This document shows, one piece after another, positions 6,783-32,792 of a stretch of 32,792 nt of DNA. Below the pieces are notes generated by a model. The model was not told where the DNA came from, ran no database searches, and saw nothing but the letters and a program-made list of their open reading frames with translations. Positions within the stretch are counted from its first letter, which is position 1. Every line of letters begins with the position of its first letter. Origin of the DNA: Cryomorphaceae bacterium (GTDB lineage: Bacteria; Bacteroidota; Bacteroidia; Flavobacteriales_D; SKUL01); NCBI GenBank assembly GCA_007695365.1, contig REDV01000147.1:1-32792 (forward strand). The letters run 5' to 3'. Both the position numbers and the translations under genes were made by a program.

Positions 6783-6913
6783 AGCAGCGACGGCAGGAGC
6801 TGCGTAGCGGAGAAGTCTCATTGAGAACGGTGATTTGAGGAAAAACAAGTCTCTGTTTCAAAGAGATTTCTCCACTCCGTGCATCGTTCCTCAGCACTCC
6901 GGTCGAAATGACA
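6783..6913. repeat. Interspersed palindromic repeat, copy 1
   Basis: The left arm (6783-6819) and right arm (6863-6913) closely match those of the copy at 7055-7206. The right arm ends in CGGTCGAAATGACA. The outermost left end (the GTCATTTCGACCG inverted counterpart) is degraded in this copy. No transposase or coding capacity is present; short open frames here are artefacts of the repeat. The spacer between arms differs from copy 2. Confidence 0.7.
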
Positions 6914-7000
6914 AGGGGGTGTGGTTGAAAAGGATTTGGCGTGGATTCTCGTGGCTCACAATCGGTAATAAAAAGCAGGCGGGGACGCCTTGAATATGTC

Positions 7001-7021
7001 AGCATAGCGAGACGCTACGCT
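7001..7021. repeat. Short hairpin repeat, second AGCGTAGC-family copy
   Basis: AGCATAGC (7001-7008) and GCTACGCT (7014-7021) flank a 5-nt loop, with one A-C mismatch in the stem. It matches the hairpin at 97-117 at nearly every stem position and sits between the two larger palindromic repeats. Confidence 0.55.
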
Positions 7022-7054
7022 GAACGGAGTTTTTATTTCTGGTTATTAGTGTTT

Positions 7055-7206
7055 TGTCATTTCGACCGAAGCAGCGACGCCAGGAGCTGCGTAGCGGAGA
7101 AATCTATTATGAGATAGAAGTGTGAATTGAATGAGATTTCTCCCCCGAAATTCTTCGGGGCAGGCTACTCCGTGCATCGTTCCTCAGCACTCCGGTCGAA
7201 ATGACA
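7055..7206. repeat. Interspersed palindromic repeat, copy 2
   Basis: Begins TGTCATTTCGACCG (7055-7068) and ends with its exact reverse complement CGGTCGAAATGACA (7193-7206), so the ends form a 14-bp inverted repeat. The inner left arm (to about 7105) and right arm (7133-7206) match copy 1. The right arm contains an extra hairpin, CCCCGAA (7143-7149) with TTCGGGG (7154-7160), that is absent from copy 1. Confidence 0.75.
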
Positions 7207-7276: not shown

Positions 7277-7279
7277 AAG

Positions 7280-7354
7280 GGTGGAAGATGGGGTTCGAAC
7301 CCACGACCTCCGGAACCACAATCCGGCGCTCTAACCAACTGAGCTACAACCACC
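7280..7354 (-). tRNA. tRNA-His (GTG anticodon)
   Basis: A full cloverleaf on the minus strand: D-arm GCTC/GAGC, anticodon arm CCGGA/TCCGG with loop TTGTGGT (anticodon GTG, His), and T-arm with TTCGAAC loop. The 5' G at 7354 lies opposite the discriminator C at 7280, the G-1:C73 identity pair of bacterial tRNA-His. No CCA is encoded. The acceptor stem reads GTGGTTG against CTTCCAC, leaving U-U oppositions at positions 5:68 and 6:67, which is unusual. The rest of the fold is normal. A terminator follows directly at 7248-7276. Confidence 0.93.
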
Positions 7355-26850: not shown

Positions 26851-27372
26851 AGGCTTGCATTAGTTGGCCCGAAAGCTTCAGGGCGATTTAGCTGCCCGCC
26901 ATCAATTGGTTACGGGAGGCAGGCGGGGAGAATCACTTTTTCAATGCGGCGAAGCAAACTGTAAAGGATTGATTCTCTTTATCGAATATACAAGATATAT
27001 ATTGGGATACCTCTTCAGAAGTCATTCAGCCTAATAAAAATTCCTTCAATCCTTCTGTGTGCAAAGAATCCGACAACACTACTACACATAGTCTCAAAAA
27101 CAACACTTTAAATGTGATGTACCTTTGATTCTTGAACATCAATACTTCTAGCCAAACTTAAGTCACATGGTTAATAAACACCTTAGACAGACTTTTCTAT
27201 CATAAGAAAGACTTATCCAACTACTCGTTAGAATTCCAATTATGTTGCTCATTGACAATGCATATTTACAACAAATAGTTAAAGATATTTTTATGTTGGA
27301 CTCAAATAATGTAAATAATTTGTTTTTCAAATTCTACATTTTCAAAATTATTTAACCAAATCTTTGTTAACT
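26851..27372. other. AT-rich gene-free region upstream of the large T9SS gene
   Basis: No supportable gene. AT content rises sharply from about 26960, in contrast to the GC-richer repeat just before it. A TAnnTTTG-like TACCTTTG at 27120-27127 is a possible -7 box, 245 nt before the ATG. Nearer the start codon only imperfect matches are seen, so the promoter is not settled. A long untranslated leader is possible. Confidence 0.4.
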
Positions 27373-30300
27373 ATGAAAACTTTATTACTTGTACCTTTTC
27401 TCACCTTTGTAGTAGTGTTAACCTCTTTTAGCCAAATTACAACACCGGTGCTGTCACCTGCATTATCCCCTCGAATTGAATGGACAAGCATAACTTGGTC
27501 TCCCACAAATCAAAGTGGACAACCTCAAACCCAATCACAATCCGGCGAGGATTGGTGGATGGATGTTATAGAATACTACGAAAATGGTGTTCACGTCGGT
27601 TATATTGCCTCCGGTTATACAACATTACCAGATTTTATCGAGTATGACGACTATGCACCATGTGCAAATTTTATAGCTGGTGGACCATACCCACAATTAT
27701 TGAATACGGACGATCACCTCCATGGTATCATAAGGCAATCCGTAGGGAGATTTGATCTTAGCGGTAATATGTTATGGTTTAAAAAGTATAACATTGGGTC
27801 ATTCCTTGGCTCTCTTCAGGACGACGATGGCAACATCATTCTTGCAGGATTCTCCAGATCACCAATTCCTTTTGAAGGAGAAAGTCATATGGAAAATATA
27901 CCGATGTATGTTAACCCTATTTCCGGTAACAATCCCAGTGGATTCTCAACTTTTGAGTTGAGCAGCCTTCCTTCTGGATTTTGCACAAATGAAGGCGATA
28001 GATTAAACAACTTCAATGTCATGAAAATCACACCTTCGGGAGAGGTCCTATACAACAATCTTTTTGGACCACATTCTACTTTGTCAGAGGTGTTCTTTGA
28101 TGCAGGAATGGCTTTTAGTTTGACCAATGCGCCTGATGGTGGCTTCTACGCTGTGGGTAGAAGTCATTTGGTTAGCGAAGTAAATAATACATACACCCCT
28201 TCAACAATGCATCCATACATTGTAAAAATTGACGATAATGGCCACAAAGAGTGGGACATTCATCACACCTCCATTCATAATGGATTTTACATGTGGATCG
28301 AAGGTCAAGGTAATAGTTACGTACTTGCTGGCCGCTATAACTTGGCCTCAGTCGGCTTGAGAGCGTTTATGCAATACACTGAAGTTTCATCTCAATCACC
28401 TGAACAAGATGCCTTTTCTAACGTAATTTGGGATAAGTATACCGAACCAAATTCCGGTTATGAATCAGATGGGTTCAACTTTGACGAGAATGTAGGGCCC
28501 GTAAACCACGGAAGCTTCAGCGCGACATTTCTTAACAACGGTGACATTGTCTGGCCTGTAGCGGCGAATTCCACGGGTGAATTTTGGGGAGGTACAAACG
28601 TTGCACAAGGCAAGATATATATTTTCGATAACCAGGGTGGAATAGTTTCTCCTAACAGTCAACCAATTGAGCTTGGTGAAATACGTGCCTATGATCTGTA
28701 TCTCAGTACCACTGCTACTACAGACGGAGGATTTGCTTTTGTTACAAGCAGACATTCGCCACAATATTTTCTGACCAATACTGCCCCCAGTTATTCAGAT
28801 TCAGATATTGGGCCTTGTCTGGACCAAATCGCCAATGGAATAGATGCAATTGATCCTTCGTATTGGTTGAGTGTAGATCCAGATTACTTTGAATATTGGA
28901 GTACATGCGCTTATGTCGGGAAATTTAACGCAGAATACGAGTTTGAATGGGATAAAATATGGGACTCAACAGACAATGCGCCCAGAGAATGCCCCCCTGG
29001 CAACCTAAAACAACAAGAATGCGTCTATCGCATTGTTCAAACCTCGGATGGGGGCTATATAATCTGTGGAAATACTTCTGATAATCTCGATGACAATTAC
29101 CTCGTAAAGATTGCAAGTGATTGCGGTATTAGAGACTTTATTGCAGGCATTGGACCCGACGGTAGTCTAATCGACAATGAAATTATCACGAACCACGAAA
29201 CCGGTGTATACGAAATCACTGAGAACACATCGTGGAATAGTAACAAAAAAGTACTGGGGAAAGTGCGGGTTAAGGATGGCCACACTCTAACAATTGAAGG
29301 TACTACCATAGCTTTTGCAGGAAACGCAAACATTGAGAGCAAAATTGAAATTGAGCAAAACGCAAGGTTGATAGTAAACAACGCAACCCTTACCAACAGC
29401 CAATATACACCGGAGGCATGTTCAGAACTGTGGGGAGGCATTGAGGTTTGGGGTACCACCTTGGAAAGACAAACACCGATTGGAGGTTACTATCACCAAG
29501 GCAGGTTCGAAGCCAGAAACAACTCAAAGATAGAAAATGCCCAAAACGCTGTATCGAATTGGAAAAAAAACGATTGGGATGCCAGAGGCGGCATTATCCA
29601 GGTTTCTGACACCAAATTTCTGAACAACACAAGGTCCGCGCAGTTCATGCGCTATCAAAACACCAACGCCATAGGTAATCCGGTGCATGATCTGAGCTTT
29701 TTTCGCAACACCGAATTTTTCTTAACCGACGACTACTTTCGGGGGCCGCAGGGAGCACACCCCCAGGTTACTTTGTGGGGTAATCATGGCGTATCCTTTA
29801 GGGGTTGCGAATTCAGAAATGACATGACCATTGCAGAAAACTCTCAGCAGCTTACATCTGGCATATACAGCCATTCAGCACACTATATTGTTGATGACTA
29901 CTGCCCGGTACCACAAGGTGCAGGGCAGCCCTGTTCTGTAACACCCATCCCCAGCTCATTTACCGGTTTTCATCACGGAATACTGGCACTTATTACAGAA
30001 TCCGGTGTTAAACACATCAATGTATCCAAAGCGGTGTTCAACGAAAACATGACCGGTATCGAACTCCGCGAAACCGACTTTAGCCGCATACGGCAAAACG
30101 AGTTTTATGTGGGTTCTAATCAATTTGAGCCAAATGAATTAGACGATGAAAGGAATTCGGGTGTATACACTTGGAGGACCTCAGCCTATTCCATCGAAGA
30201 AAACCACTTCGAAAAAGCGGGTTCCAATGGATGGCCTACACACGGTGCCGTTATTGAAGCGAGTGGTGCTGCCGAAAACGAATTGTATAAAAACGACATT

Positions 30301-31836
30301 GAAGGACTGATGTACGGTTCAGTAGCCATCGACAACAACCGCGGCGGTAAACTGGGCAATGAGGGGTTGCAGTTTTTATGCAATAACAATTCGGAAAACG
30401 GACGTGATTTTGACGTGGTTAATCTAAATAATGTATTAGGAAAGGGTATTCGCAGTAGCCAGGGTGACTATCCCGGAGTAGCTGCGGCCAATGTGTTCAG
30501 CCAGTCTTCGGCCTACTCACTCGATTTTATGCACTTTGCACAGGATCAGGACATGCCATTGGTGGGATATGCGTGGTACACTGGCGATGTGCTGCATGAA
30601 CCATCTGGTTCAGAAGTTACTTCGAATGTGGATCTCGGGTATAGTACAAGTAATGAGCGAACTTGCGCAAGCACTTTTGCCGGCAAGCACAAGGCCAATT
30701 TCAAATCGGCATTCGATTCGGCCAGCACCGAGTACTACAACCTGCTGTACAACTATCATCAACTGAGTGATGGCGGCGATACCGAAGGATTGCTCGATGA
30801 AATAGCGGGCAGCTGGTCGCAGGATGCCTGGGACTTGCGCAACACATTGCTGCAGGACTCACCGTTTTTAACTGTGGAAGTGTTGATTGCGGCTGCCGAC
30901 CGTGACATTATGCCCCACGCCATGTTGATGGAGGTATTGCTGGCTAACCCCGACGCACTACGCAGCAGCGAACTGATCGATCATCTGAAATACTACATGC
31001 CCAACCCGCTTCCGCAGTACATGATCGATATTTTGATTGATGCGCGCAATGAAATTACTGTAAAAACCAATCTGTTGAGTGCAATGGGTCAAAAAAGTCG
31101 CACCATGGCCCTCAACCACAAAATGGTGATCCAGGAAATGCTTGCCGATACTTTGGGCTTCAATCCCGATTCGCTGCTGTGGTTTATGGGACGGCTCGAG
31201 AATATCCCCAATCATTATGCTTTGGCCATGACCCACCTCGAAATGGGCGATCTTTCCGAAGGTAAAGCAGTACTTACCCATATGCCGGTAATATGGGACC
31301 GAATGAATACCGAGGAGGAAACCGAATGGGAGCAATTCAATGATTTGTATGACCTGCTGAGAACGGTTAAATCAGATGGCCGCAATGTGGCCCGGTTAAA
31401 AGATGTCGAAATAGATGCTTTGTTAACCATTGCACAAACGCCAAACAGTGGTCGGGCAGGTGGCCGGGCGTGGAATGCGTTGTGTTTTCACTACCAGATA
31501 TGTCCCGAAGGACAGTTCATTCCTGCTCCGAGAAGTTTTCAGGCGTATGAAGCCACAAACATTCAATCTCAAATGGAGGTCAACCCTGTAGTGGTGTACC
31601 CCAATCCGGCCGATAGCTACACCACGTTGCGTTACGAATTGTTCCGTTCACATCCGCAAACCTACATACGCATCTTCGATGTCAGCGGCCGTATAATCAG
31701 GTCTTTTGACCTCGGTGATAACTACGAAGGCCAGGTACTTTGGGATACCCGCGACGAACGCTCCGGAATGTATTTCTACCAGCTTTGGCAGAATGAAGAA
31801 AAAGTATCTGCGGGTAAAATAGTGGTACAGCATTAA
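27373..31836 (+). CDS. Large secreted protein with T9SS type A sorting domain, beta-helix and propeller-like parts
   Basis: A 1487-residue protein. The ATG at 27373 starts a clear signal peptide (MKTLLLVPFLTFVVVLTSFSQ); an upstream TTG at 27364 adds only three residues. Residues about 25-590 hold repeated strand-turn motifs such as DGGFYAVG, DGGFAFVTS and TSDGGYIICG, which look like beta-propeller blades. About 620-1030 has beta-helix-like repeats (GTTIAFAGNANIESKIEIEQNARLIVNNATL, SDTKFLNNTRSAQF, VSKAVFNENMTGIEL). About 1103-1375 is mainly helical. The last 85 residues are a type A sorting domain: YPNPADSYTTLRYEL, IRIFDVSGRIIRSF, GMYFYQLW and GKIVVQH. Probably an exported adhesin or surface protein. 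Base composition changes within the gene at about 29500-29700. Confidence 0.93.
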   Translation: MKTLLLVPFLTFVVVLTSFSQITTPVLSPALSPRIEWTSITWSPTNQSGQPQTQSQSGEDWWMDVIEYYENGVHVGYIASGYTTLPDFIEYDDYAPCANFIAGGPYPQLLNTDDHLHGIIRQSVGRFDLSGNMLWFKKYNIGSFLGSLQDDDGNIILAGFSRSPIPFEGESHMENIPMYVNPISGNNPSGFSTFELSSLPSGFCTNEGDRLNNFNVMKITPSGEVLYNNLFGPHSTLSEVFFDAGMAFSLTNAPDGGFYAVGRSHLVSEVNNTYTPSTMHPYIVKIDDNGHKEWDIHHTSIHNGFYMWIEGQGNSYVLAGRYNLASVGLRAFMQYTEVSSQSPEQDAFSNVIWDKYTEPNSGYESDGFNFDENVGPVNHGSFSATFLNNGDIVWPVAANSTGEFWGGTNVAQGKIYIFDNQGGIVSPNSQPIELGEIRAYDLYLSTTATTDGGFAFVTSRHSPQYFLTNTAPSYSDSDIGPCLDQIANGIDAIDPSYWLSVDPDYFEYWSTCAYVGKFNAEYEFEWDKIWDSTDNAPRECPPGNLKQQECVYRIVQTSDGGYIICGNTSDNLDDNYLVKIASDCGIRDFIAGIGPDGSLIDNEIITNHETGVYEITENTSWNSNKKVLGKVRVKDGHTLTIEGTTIAFAGNANIESKIEIEQNARLIVNNATLTNSQYTPEACSELWGGIEVWGTTLERQTPIGGYYHQGRFEARNNSKIENAQNAVSNWKKNDWDARGGIIQVSDTKFLNNTRSAQFMRYQNTNAIGNPVHDLSFFRNTEFFLTDDYFRGPQGAHPQVTLWGNHGVSFRGCEFRNDMTIAENSQQLTSGIYSHSAHYIVDDYCPVPQGAGQPCSVTPIPSSFTGFHHGILALITESGVKHINVSKAVFNENMTGIELRETDFSRIRQNEFYVGSNQFEPNELDDERNSGVYTWRTSAYSIEENHFEKAGSNGWPTHGAVIEASGAAENELYKNDIEGLMYGSVAIDNNRGGKLGNEGLQFLCNNNSENGRDFDVVNLNNVLGKGIRSSQGDYPGVAAANVFSQSSAYSLDFMHFAQDQDMPLVGYAWYTGDVLHEPSGSEVTSNVDLGYSTSNERTCASTFAGKHKANFKSAFDSASTEYYNLLYNYHQLSDGGDTEGLLDEIAGSWSQDAWDLRNTLLQDSPFLTVEVLIAAADRDIMPHAMLMEVLLANPDALRSSELIDHLKYYMPNPLPQYMIDILIDARNEITVKTNLLSAMGQKSRTMALNHKMVIQEMLADTLGFNPDSLLWFMGRLENIPNHYALAMTHLEMGDLSEGKAVLTHMPVIWDRMNTEEETEWEQFNDLYDLLRTVKSDGRNVARLKDVEIDALLTIAQTPNSGRAGGRAWNALCFHYQICPEGQFIPAPRSFQAYEATNIQSQMEVNPVVVYPNPADSYTTLRYELFRSHPQTYIRIFDVSGRIIRSFDLGDNYEGQVLWDTRDERSGMYFYQLWQNEEKVSAGKIVVQH

Positions 31837-31855: not shown

Positions 31856-32792
31856 ATGATCAGATTCATGCTTATATCTGTAATCCTGTGGGCGGGGTGC
31901 GTGAAGCTCTCCGCCCAGCAGGGTTATACCTATGTGGTAGATGAAGAATTTGTGCATTATGAAAATATCTTTATAAGGGTTGAAGGACTGGTTTTGACAG
32001 AATCCAACCAAATTGTGGTTAGTGCTCATTGGCATCCACTAAGCGGCCACAGAGGCATTGTTCGGCTATATCCAACTGGAGATTTTGATAACTCTTTTGG
32101 TACTCCTTCTTCATTAGGAGGGGGGGGGGCATTGTTCAGAGTGCCAGGAGGATACATGAGATTCAATAATACCCCCGGTAAACATGATGAACTAGGACAA
32201 CCATATCCAGGTTTTAATTTTTACTTTGCCAATAACTTTCCCACCAATCCTCCACCGGATGCCATGGCCTTGTTTCCATTGCCCGATGGCAGATTTTACG
32301 TCAGCGGGCGCATTTACCTCGATTCGCTAGGCAACAAAGCCCACCTGGTGCGCATGATGCCCAACGGCAGTGTGGATACTACTTTTACCCCCCGCGTGGT
32401 GAACGCGCCGCTTTCGGGTAAAACCTCACACATGATGTTTTACGATGATGAACGCATTATGGTGGGCGGTAACTTCAATACCTTTGAAGATCATGTTTCT
32501 CCACACATGGTGCGGGTTTTTCTGGATGGTTCGGTGGATACTACCTTTACTTCAGAGTTTGTAGAACGCTATTTCACTTCAGCCCGATACGTGGATGACC
32601 AGGGCAGGATTATGATTACAGACCCGGCAGGTGGATTTGCCAGTCATCCGGAAGATACGGTGCTGGTAATGCGTGTTTTGCCAGATGGCCGCGAAGATAC
32701 CACCTTCCATCACCTGGAAATAGAAGGTGGCACAACAGCGCAAAACAGCTATTGGTGGCCGGCAGTAATTGGCGTAGTACCCGAAGATGATG
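31856..32792 (+). CDS. Delta-60 repeat secreted protein (partial, runs off the window)
   Basis: Open from the ATG at 31856 to the last base (312 complete codons). Starts 19 nt after the preceding stop on the same strand, so the two may be cotranscribed. A signal peptide (MIRFMLISVILWAGCVKLSAQ) is followed by beta-propeller repeats of the Delta-60 type: MMPNGSVDTTFTP, RVFLDGSVDTTFTS and RVLPDGREDTTFHH, each preceded by a strand with a GG(N/R)F-like turn (VGGNFNTFEDH). A T9SS sorting domain would be expected beyond the window end but is not visible. A run of ten G at 32120-32129 lies in the frame within the AT-richer first third. Confidence 0.85.
   Translation, partial: MIRFMLISVILWAGCVKLSAQQGYTYVVDEEFVHYENIFIRVEGLVLTESNQIVVSAHWHPLSGHRGIVRLYPTGDFDNSFGTPSSLGGGGALFRVPGGYMRFNNTPGKHDELGQPYPGFNFYFANNFPTNPPPDAMALFPLPDGRFYVSGRIYLDSLGNKAHLVRMMPNGSVDTTFTPRVVNAPLSGKTSHMMFYDDERIMVGGNFNTFEDHVSPHMVRVFLDGSVDTTFTSEFVERYFTSARYVDDQGRIMITDPAGGFASHPEDTVLVMRVLPDGREDTTFHHLEIEGGTTAQNSYWWPAVIGVVPEDD
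32120..32129 (+). repeat. Ten-G homopolymer in the open frame
   Basis: Ten consecutive G encode part of a glycine run (residues about 88-92). The frame is open with ten G; a gain or loss of one or two would shift it. Long G tracts are the classic substrate of slipped-strand phase variation, although an assembly error in a homopolymer is also possible. Confidence 0.75.

Follow-up and report, generated by a model that had tools for sequence, protein, structure and literature searches.

The question raised by this locus is whether a run of ten G residues inside the coding sequence of a secreted protein serves as an on/off switch in an uncultured member of the Flavobacteriales. Such poly-G switches are familiar from pathogens, but descriptions from the Flavobacteriales are few. 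We consider the run (G10) to be a candidate slipped-strand contingency site, that is, a site of phase variation, with a rough probability of 0.6. G runs are likewise carried by two genes of the nearest sequenced relative, the counterpart of this gene and another gene for a secreted protein, and this favors the reading.

The propeller gene and its G tract

The window, meaning the whole stretch of DNA analyzed, is a complete contig (C147) of 32,792 bases within a 3.52-Mb genome of 154 contigs (G000). Its last gene is open from the ATG at 31856 for 312 codons, and the 3' part is missing because the contig stops at 32792. The product is a DUF5122 propeller (PF17164; E 2.4e-15, 56.9 bits against a curated cut-off of 27), which can be aligned with full-length homologues across the tract and on both sides of it (Table 1). 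When the window protein was searched against the genome contig collection, no relative was returned.

Table 1. Features of the window at and around the G tract
Feature	Position	Strand	Basis
Upstream secreted protein of 1490 aa with T9SS sorting tail	27364..31836	+	Por_Secre_tail, E 7e-9
Secreted DUF5122 (Delta-60) beta-propeller gene, 3' end off contig	31856..32792	+	open frame, PF17164, homologue alignment
Signal-peptide-like N-terminus, MIRFMLISVILWAGCVKLSAQ then QGY	31856..31918	+	sequence reading and simple hydrophobicity rule
G10 homopolymer, candidate slippage site	32120..32129	+	codons 89-91 (GGG GGG GGG) and first base of codon 92
TGA stop, used at 9 or 12 G	32157..32159	+	frame computation
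TAA stop, used at 8 or 11 G	32167..32169	+	frame computation
DUF5122 repeat	32282..32386	+	E 7.3e-4, under curated cut-off
DUF5122 repeat	32447..32548	+	29.9 bits, over cut-off

On direct reading of the single assembly the tract consists of exactly ten G between an A (32119) and a C (32130), and it starts 264 nt past the ATG, agreeing with an earlier note on this DNA that had placed ten G about 265 nt into the Delta-60 gene near its exported N-terminus. The codons involved are GGA-GGG-GGG-GGG-GCA, giving Gly88-Gly91 and Ala92. By computation the frame is kept with 7, 10 or 13 G, while products of 103, 100, 104 and 101 aa are predicted at 8, 9, 11 and 12 G, respectively. The same note was thus correct that the frame needs ten G and is broken by small changes. 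As in contingency loci, the repeat lies in frame and a change of plus or minus one base would remove the product.

Under the proposed mechanism, slipped-strand mispairing at replication would gain or lose one G. Ten G would be the ON length and would yield the secreted propeller, while at 9 or 11 G translation would stop 9-12 codons past the tract and leave only a short fragment. The intact propeller would be exported by Sec and then by the T9SS, which would probably place it at the surface or in the medium. By sequence reading and the simple hydrophobicity rule, the N-terminus is signal-peptide-like, as in T9SS substrates. The sorting tail is seen in the congener homologue described below (Por_Secre_tail, E 1.7e-11), the C-terminus of the window propeller itself being off the contig. 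The gene upstream ends 19 nt ahead of the propeller ATG, a gap that makes co-transcription of the two genes possible.

Elsewhere in the window an intergenic inverted-repeat element with arms near TTTGTCATTTCGACCGGAG was located at 6861-7206, adjoining a tRNA-His (7279-7353). A copy lies on a second contig of the same genome (L010:1520-1652, G000 C93); the element is a dispersed repeat.

Run length within the genome

The G10 is the longest G/C run of the 3.5-Mb genome, where runs of 6, 7, 8, 9 and 10 occur 333, 47, 13, 2 and 1 times. Non-coding G9 runs of this genome lie on C97 and C128. Long runs may also arise by accident: a glycine-rich loop with GGG codons, perhaps lengthened by slippage, could form a site that may mutate and has no adaptive role. 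We regard such a neutral origin as unlikely, though it retains appreciable weight. In its favor, the tail of the run-length distribution predicts 0.25-1.0 runs of at least ten in the genome, and the V-GGG and W-GGG motifs of propellers serve as seeds. Drawing the codons anew from genome usage, for an unchanged protein, produced a run of at least ten in 2.8% of trials for the window gene and in 0.8% for the congener propeller. By length alone the tract barely exceeds chance, and from the tail and the 2.8% of redraws it follows that length alone is not enough for a claim of switching. Nor is every long G run in this genome a switch, an idea that was rejected since G8 runs are also found in Sua5-like and cytochrome-oxidase-like genes (named from sequence only).

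The closest homologue in a congener

Comparison within the genus relied on a single genome of the same genus and family, the metagenome-assembled Flavobacteriales bacterium isolate CSSed162cmB_100 (G001). Its 2.5 Mb contain just two G10+ runs, and one of them, a G11, lies in frame in the window propeller's closest homologue (G001 C66). This homologue is complete at 522 aa and combines DUF5122 repeats with a T9SS sorting tail. It is the best match of the window protein among all homologues compared (80.9 bits), and the two propellers are reciprocal best matches within the genus. By length, the probability that one of the two runs would fall in the 1.57-kb propeller gene is about 0.0013.

The two tracts do not occupy the same place. 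A blade's conserved V-G-G-G motif holds the G11, and the G10 of the window belongs to a loop whose counterparts in the other homologues are not rich in glycine. Since their places differ, we read the two tracts as being of separate origin. A neutral account would thus need two separate events in homologous genes of two congeners, events that are absent from the corresponding loci in other genera.

Controls came from homologous loci. Among 30 loci obtained by searching with the congener propeller (some recovered through the sorting tail only), runs of at least 7 were present only in the two genus members. Further propeller homologues outside the genus have G runs of 8 or less, and a paralogue within the window genome (C149) has a maximum run of 4. 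The suggestion that DUF5122 composition alone yields long G runs was rejected on these values. When places of overlap between G10+ tracts and DUF5122 genes were inspected by eye in 399 genomes, none outside the genus was found among the places listed. In related genomes, where the earlier note had proposed a check, a long in-frame tract is kept in the congener homologue at a different position, and the runs of other genera do not exceed 8.

A T9SS subtilase with an orthologous tract

The second G10+ run of the congener precedes the signal peptide in the gene for a T9SS subtilase (G001 C51), and the window genome has an orthologue (G000 C59). The tract is at the same place in both, an equal 32 codons from the shared ATG, with 8 G in the window genome (L134:1999-2006) and 11 G in the congener (L082:3724-3734). 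A second secreted gene with an orthologous tract of variable length argues against a neutral origin. In both orthologues the frame opened by the ATG meets a stop shortly past the tract, and a different frame encodes the signal peptide; with 9 or 12 G the two frames would be joined. The subtilase therefore looks to be OFF in both assemblies, and the ON form was seen in neither of them. For the window genome this is less certain, as the 8-G form could be read from a TTG start upstream. In the congener a stop two codons ahead of the tract rules out a route of that kind.

A contig search with the subtilase gave as sole relative the congener contig SKUL01000362.1, identical to G001 C51. Among 30 loci from the subtilase search only the copy of the window genome reaches 8; the 11-G copy of the congener is outside those 30 loci, its contig having been taken separately. 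Judged by these homologous loci, neither the propeller nor the subtilase family itself brings long G runs.

Long G tracts across the order

The survey of the order covered 109 interior G10+ tracts, namely those of 60 relatives together with those of 60 regions in list order. Tracts are depleted in genes, with 39 there against 75 expected for random positions in the same loci. That the tracts of the order lie mostly outside genes is consistent with a neutral origin. Closeness to the signal peptides of long open reading frames, assessed for 49 G10+ tracts, showed no enrichment (8 against 8.4 expected). Reading frames are split exactly at a G10+ tract in 6 cases against 1.8 expected for random positions, and because the thresholds of this test were set after some cases were known, its P of 0.008 is only a guide. 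Four of the six split genes are the congener subtilase, a hexapeptide transferase (G180 C1), a secreted protein (G026 C19) and a gene that is methyltransferase-like as judged from its sequence (G015 C154). The gene types split at the tracts of the order are often phase-variable elsewhere.

Taken with the congener, these counts leave the proposal of the earlier note, a switch for a surface protein, partly upheld. The G11 of the congener, the 8 versus 11 G of the subtilases and the excess of splits speak for it. Speaking against it are a length that is within the tail of its own genome, tracts of the order that are mostly outside genes, and their lack of enrichment at signal peptides.

The other two split genes, a secreted protein with a T9SS-like tail (L098, G031 C100) and a lipoprotein (L101, G031 C202), are each present as two frames that part exactly at a G11. 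Several further tracts were noted in the same survey. Three T9SS RCC1 propellers contain an in-frame G12 at the same codon (L218:1970-1981, L219:1984-1995 and L220, from G170 C9, G291 C1 and G291 C2). These diverged proteins have 77-84% of residues in common, and at the other glycines that they share only about half of the codons agree, yet the three GGG codons are kept. This retention of the G12 counts in favor of a contingency role, but slippage may itself keep a run pure, so it is no proof of selection. In two large secreted proteins a poly-C tract separates a short leader, begun by an ATG, from the signal peptide, with 12 C in one (L131:2541-2552, G009 C45) and 10 in the other (L096:2419-2428, G017 C309). 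The two proteins look similar and come from bacteria of different families of the order, and in each the signal peptide is in another frame than the leader. The leader-to-signal-peptide layout is thus found with poly-G in the subtilase of the genus and with poly-C in two other bacterial families of the order.

G10-G26 runs were also encountered at or near contig ends (G025 C16, C29 and C33, G014 C63 and G017 C165). These are probably poly-G read artefacts, and contig edges are therefore best left out of surveys of tracts. The same concern applies to the window tract, where a sequencing or assembly artefact would mean that the real run is shorter or that its length is uncertain. Errors are frequent in homopolymers, the tract is 663 bases from the contig end, and several of the edge runs in other assemblies resemble artefacts. 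However, the G10 is interior and flanked by normal sequence, and only 10 G (or 7 or 13) leave the frame open so that homologues match on either side, making an artefact very improbable.

Transcriptional slippage or ribosomal frameshifting at the run, through which several products would come from one fixed DNA length, is equally hard to credit: homopolymers of eight or more have been named as sites of transcriptional realignment (PMC3711429) and such a process could bridge the subtilase tract, which in neither species is in frame with the ATG, but the realignment examples in that source stress A or T runs and the DNA length of the subtilase tract itself differs between species (8 versus 11 G).

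Comparison with known systems and meaning

In Campylobacter jejuni, Helicobacter pylori and Neisseria, surface-related genes of this class carry a coding G homopolymer toward the 5' end, and single-base changes switch the frame. The window G10 resembles them in being coding, near the 5' end and placed so that a single-base change switches the frame. It differs in its host, an uncultured member of the Flavobacteriales, in its gene, a DUF5122 propeller of probable T9SS type, and in being a candidate switch. The tract would work like a poly-G contingency locus, of which it is a candidate and still incomplete member. Three points are inferred: a tract length that varies in the population, a surface position for the protein and selection acting on the switching. 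The poly-G and poly-C contingency loci of the three pathogens have been reviewed (PMC11868660).

Within the Bacteroidota, the polysaccharide loci of Bacteroides fragilis have invertible promoters (PMC11868660). They share with the present proposal the on/off variation of surface structures, yet rely on DNA inversion by a recombinase and not on slippage at a homopolymer. A putative phase-variation mechanism is reported for the FSD adhesin genes of Ornithobacterium hominis (PMC13183296); these are likewise secreted or adhesin genes of a Flavobacteriales-type member of the Bacteroidota with putative phase variation, but they belong to another protein family and to a host-associated species. DUF5122/Delta-60 propellers with a T9SS tail (PF17164 with PF18962) have a signal peptide and DUF5122 repeats as in the window, and the congener homologue has both domains; the propeller loci outside the genus differ in being without long G runs.

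A literature search, which reached few subscription journals, found no description of poly-G switching among T9SS proteins of the Flavobacteriales. The possible novelty lies in a repertoire of poly-G tracts on T9SS-secreted proteins of uncultured members of this order. Repeat-driven phase variation has been catalogued mainly in host-associated bacteria, possibly through database bias (PMC11868660). Tentatively, and at somewhat less than even odds, uncultured Flavobacteriales may hold a small phase-variable repertoire of poly-G and poly-C tracts on T9SS-secreted propellers and other secreted proteins, with tracts recurring at V-GGG or W-GGG motifs or between a leader and a signal peptide. The analysis yields a short list of loci for which existing metagenome reads would allow tract lengths to be counted. 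If the reading of the G10 as a contingency site is true, switching of a T9SS propeller would represent bet-hedging at the surface beyond the well-studied pathogens.
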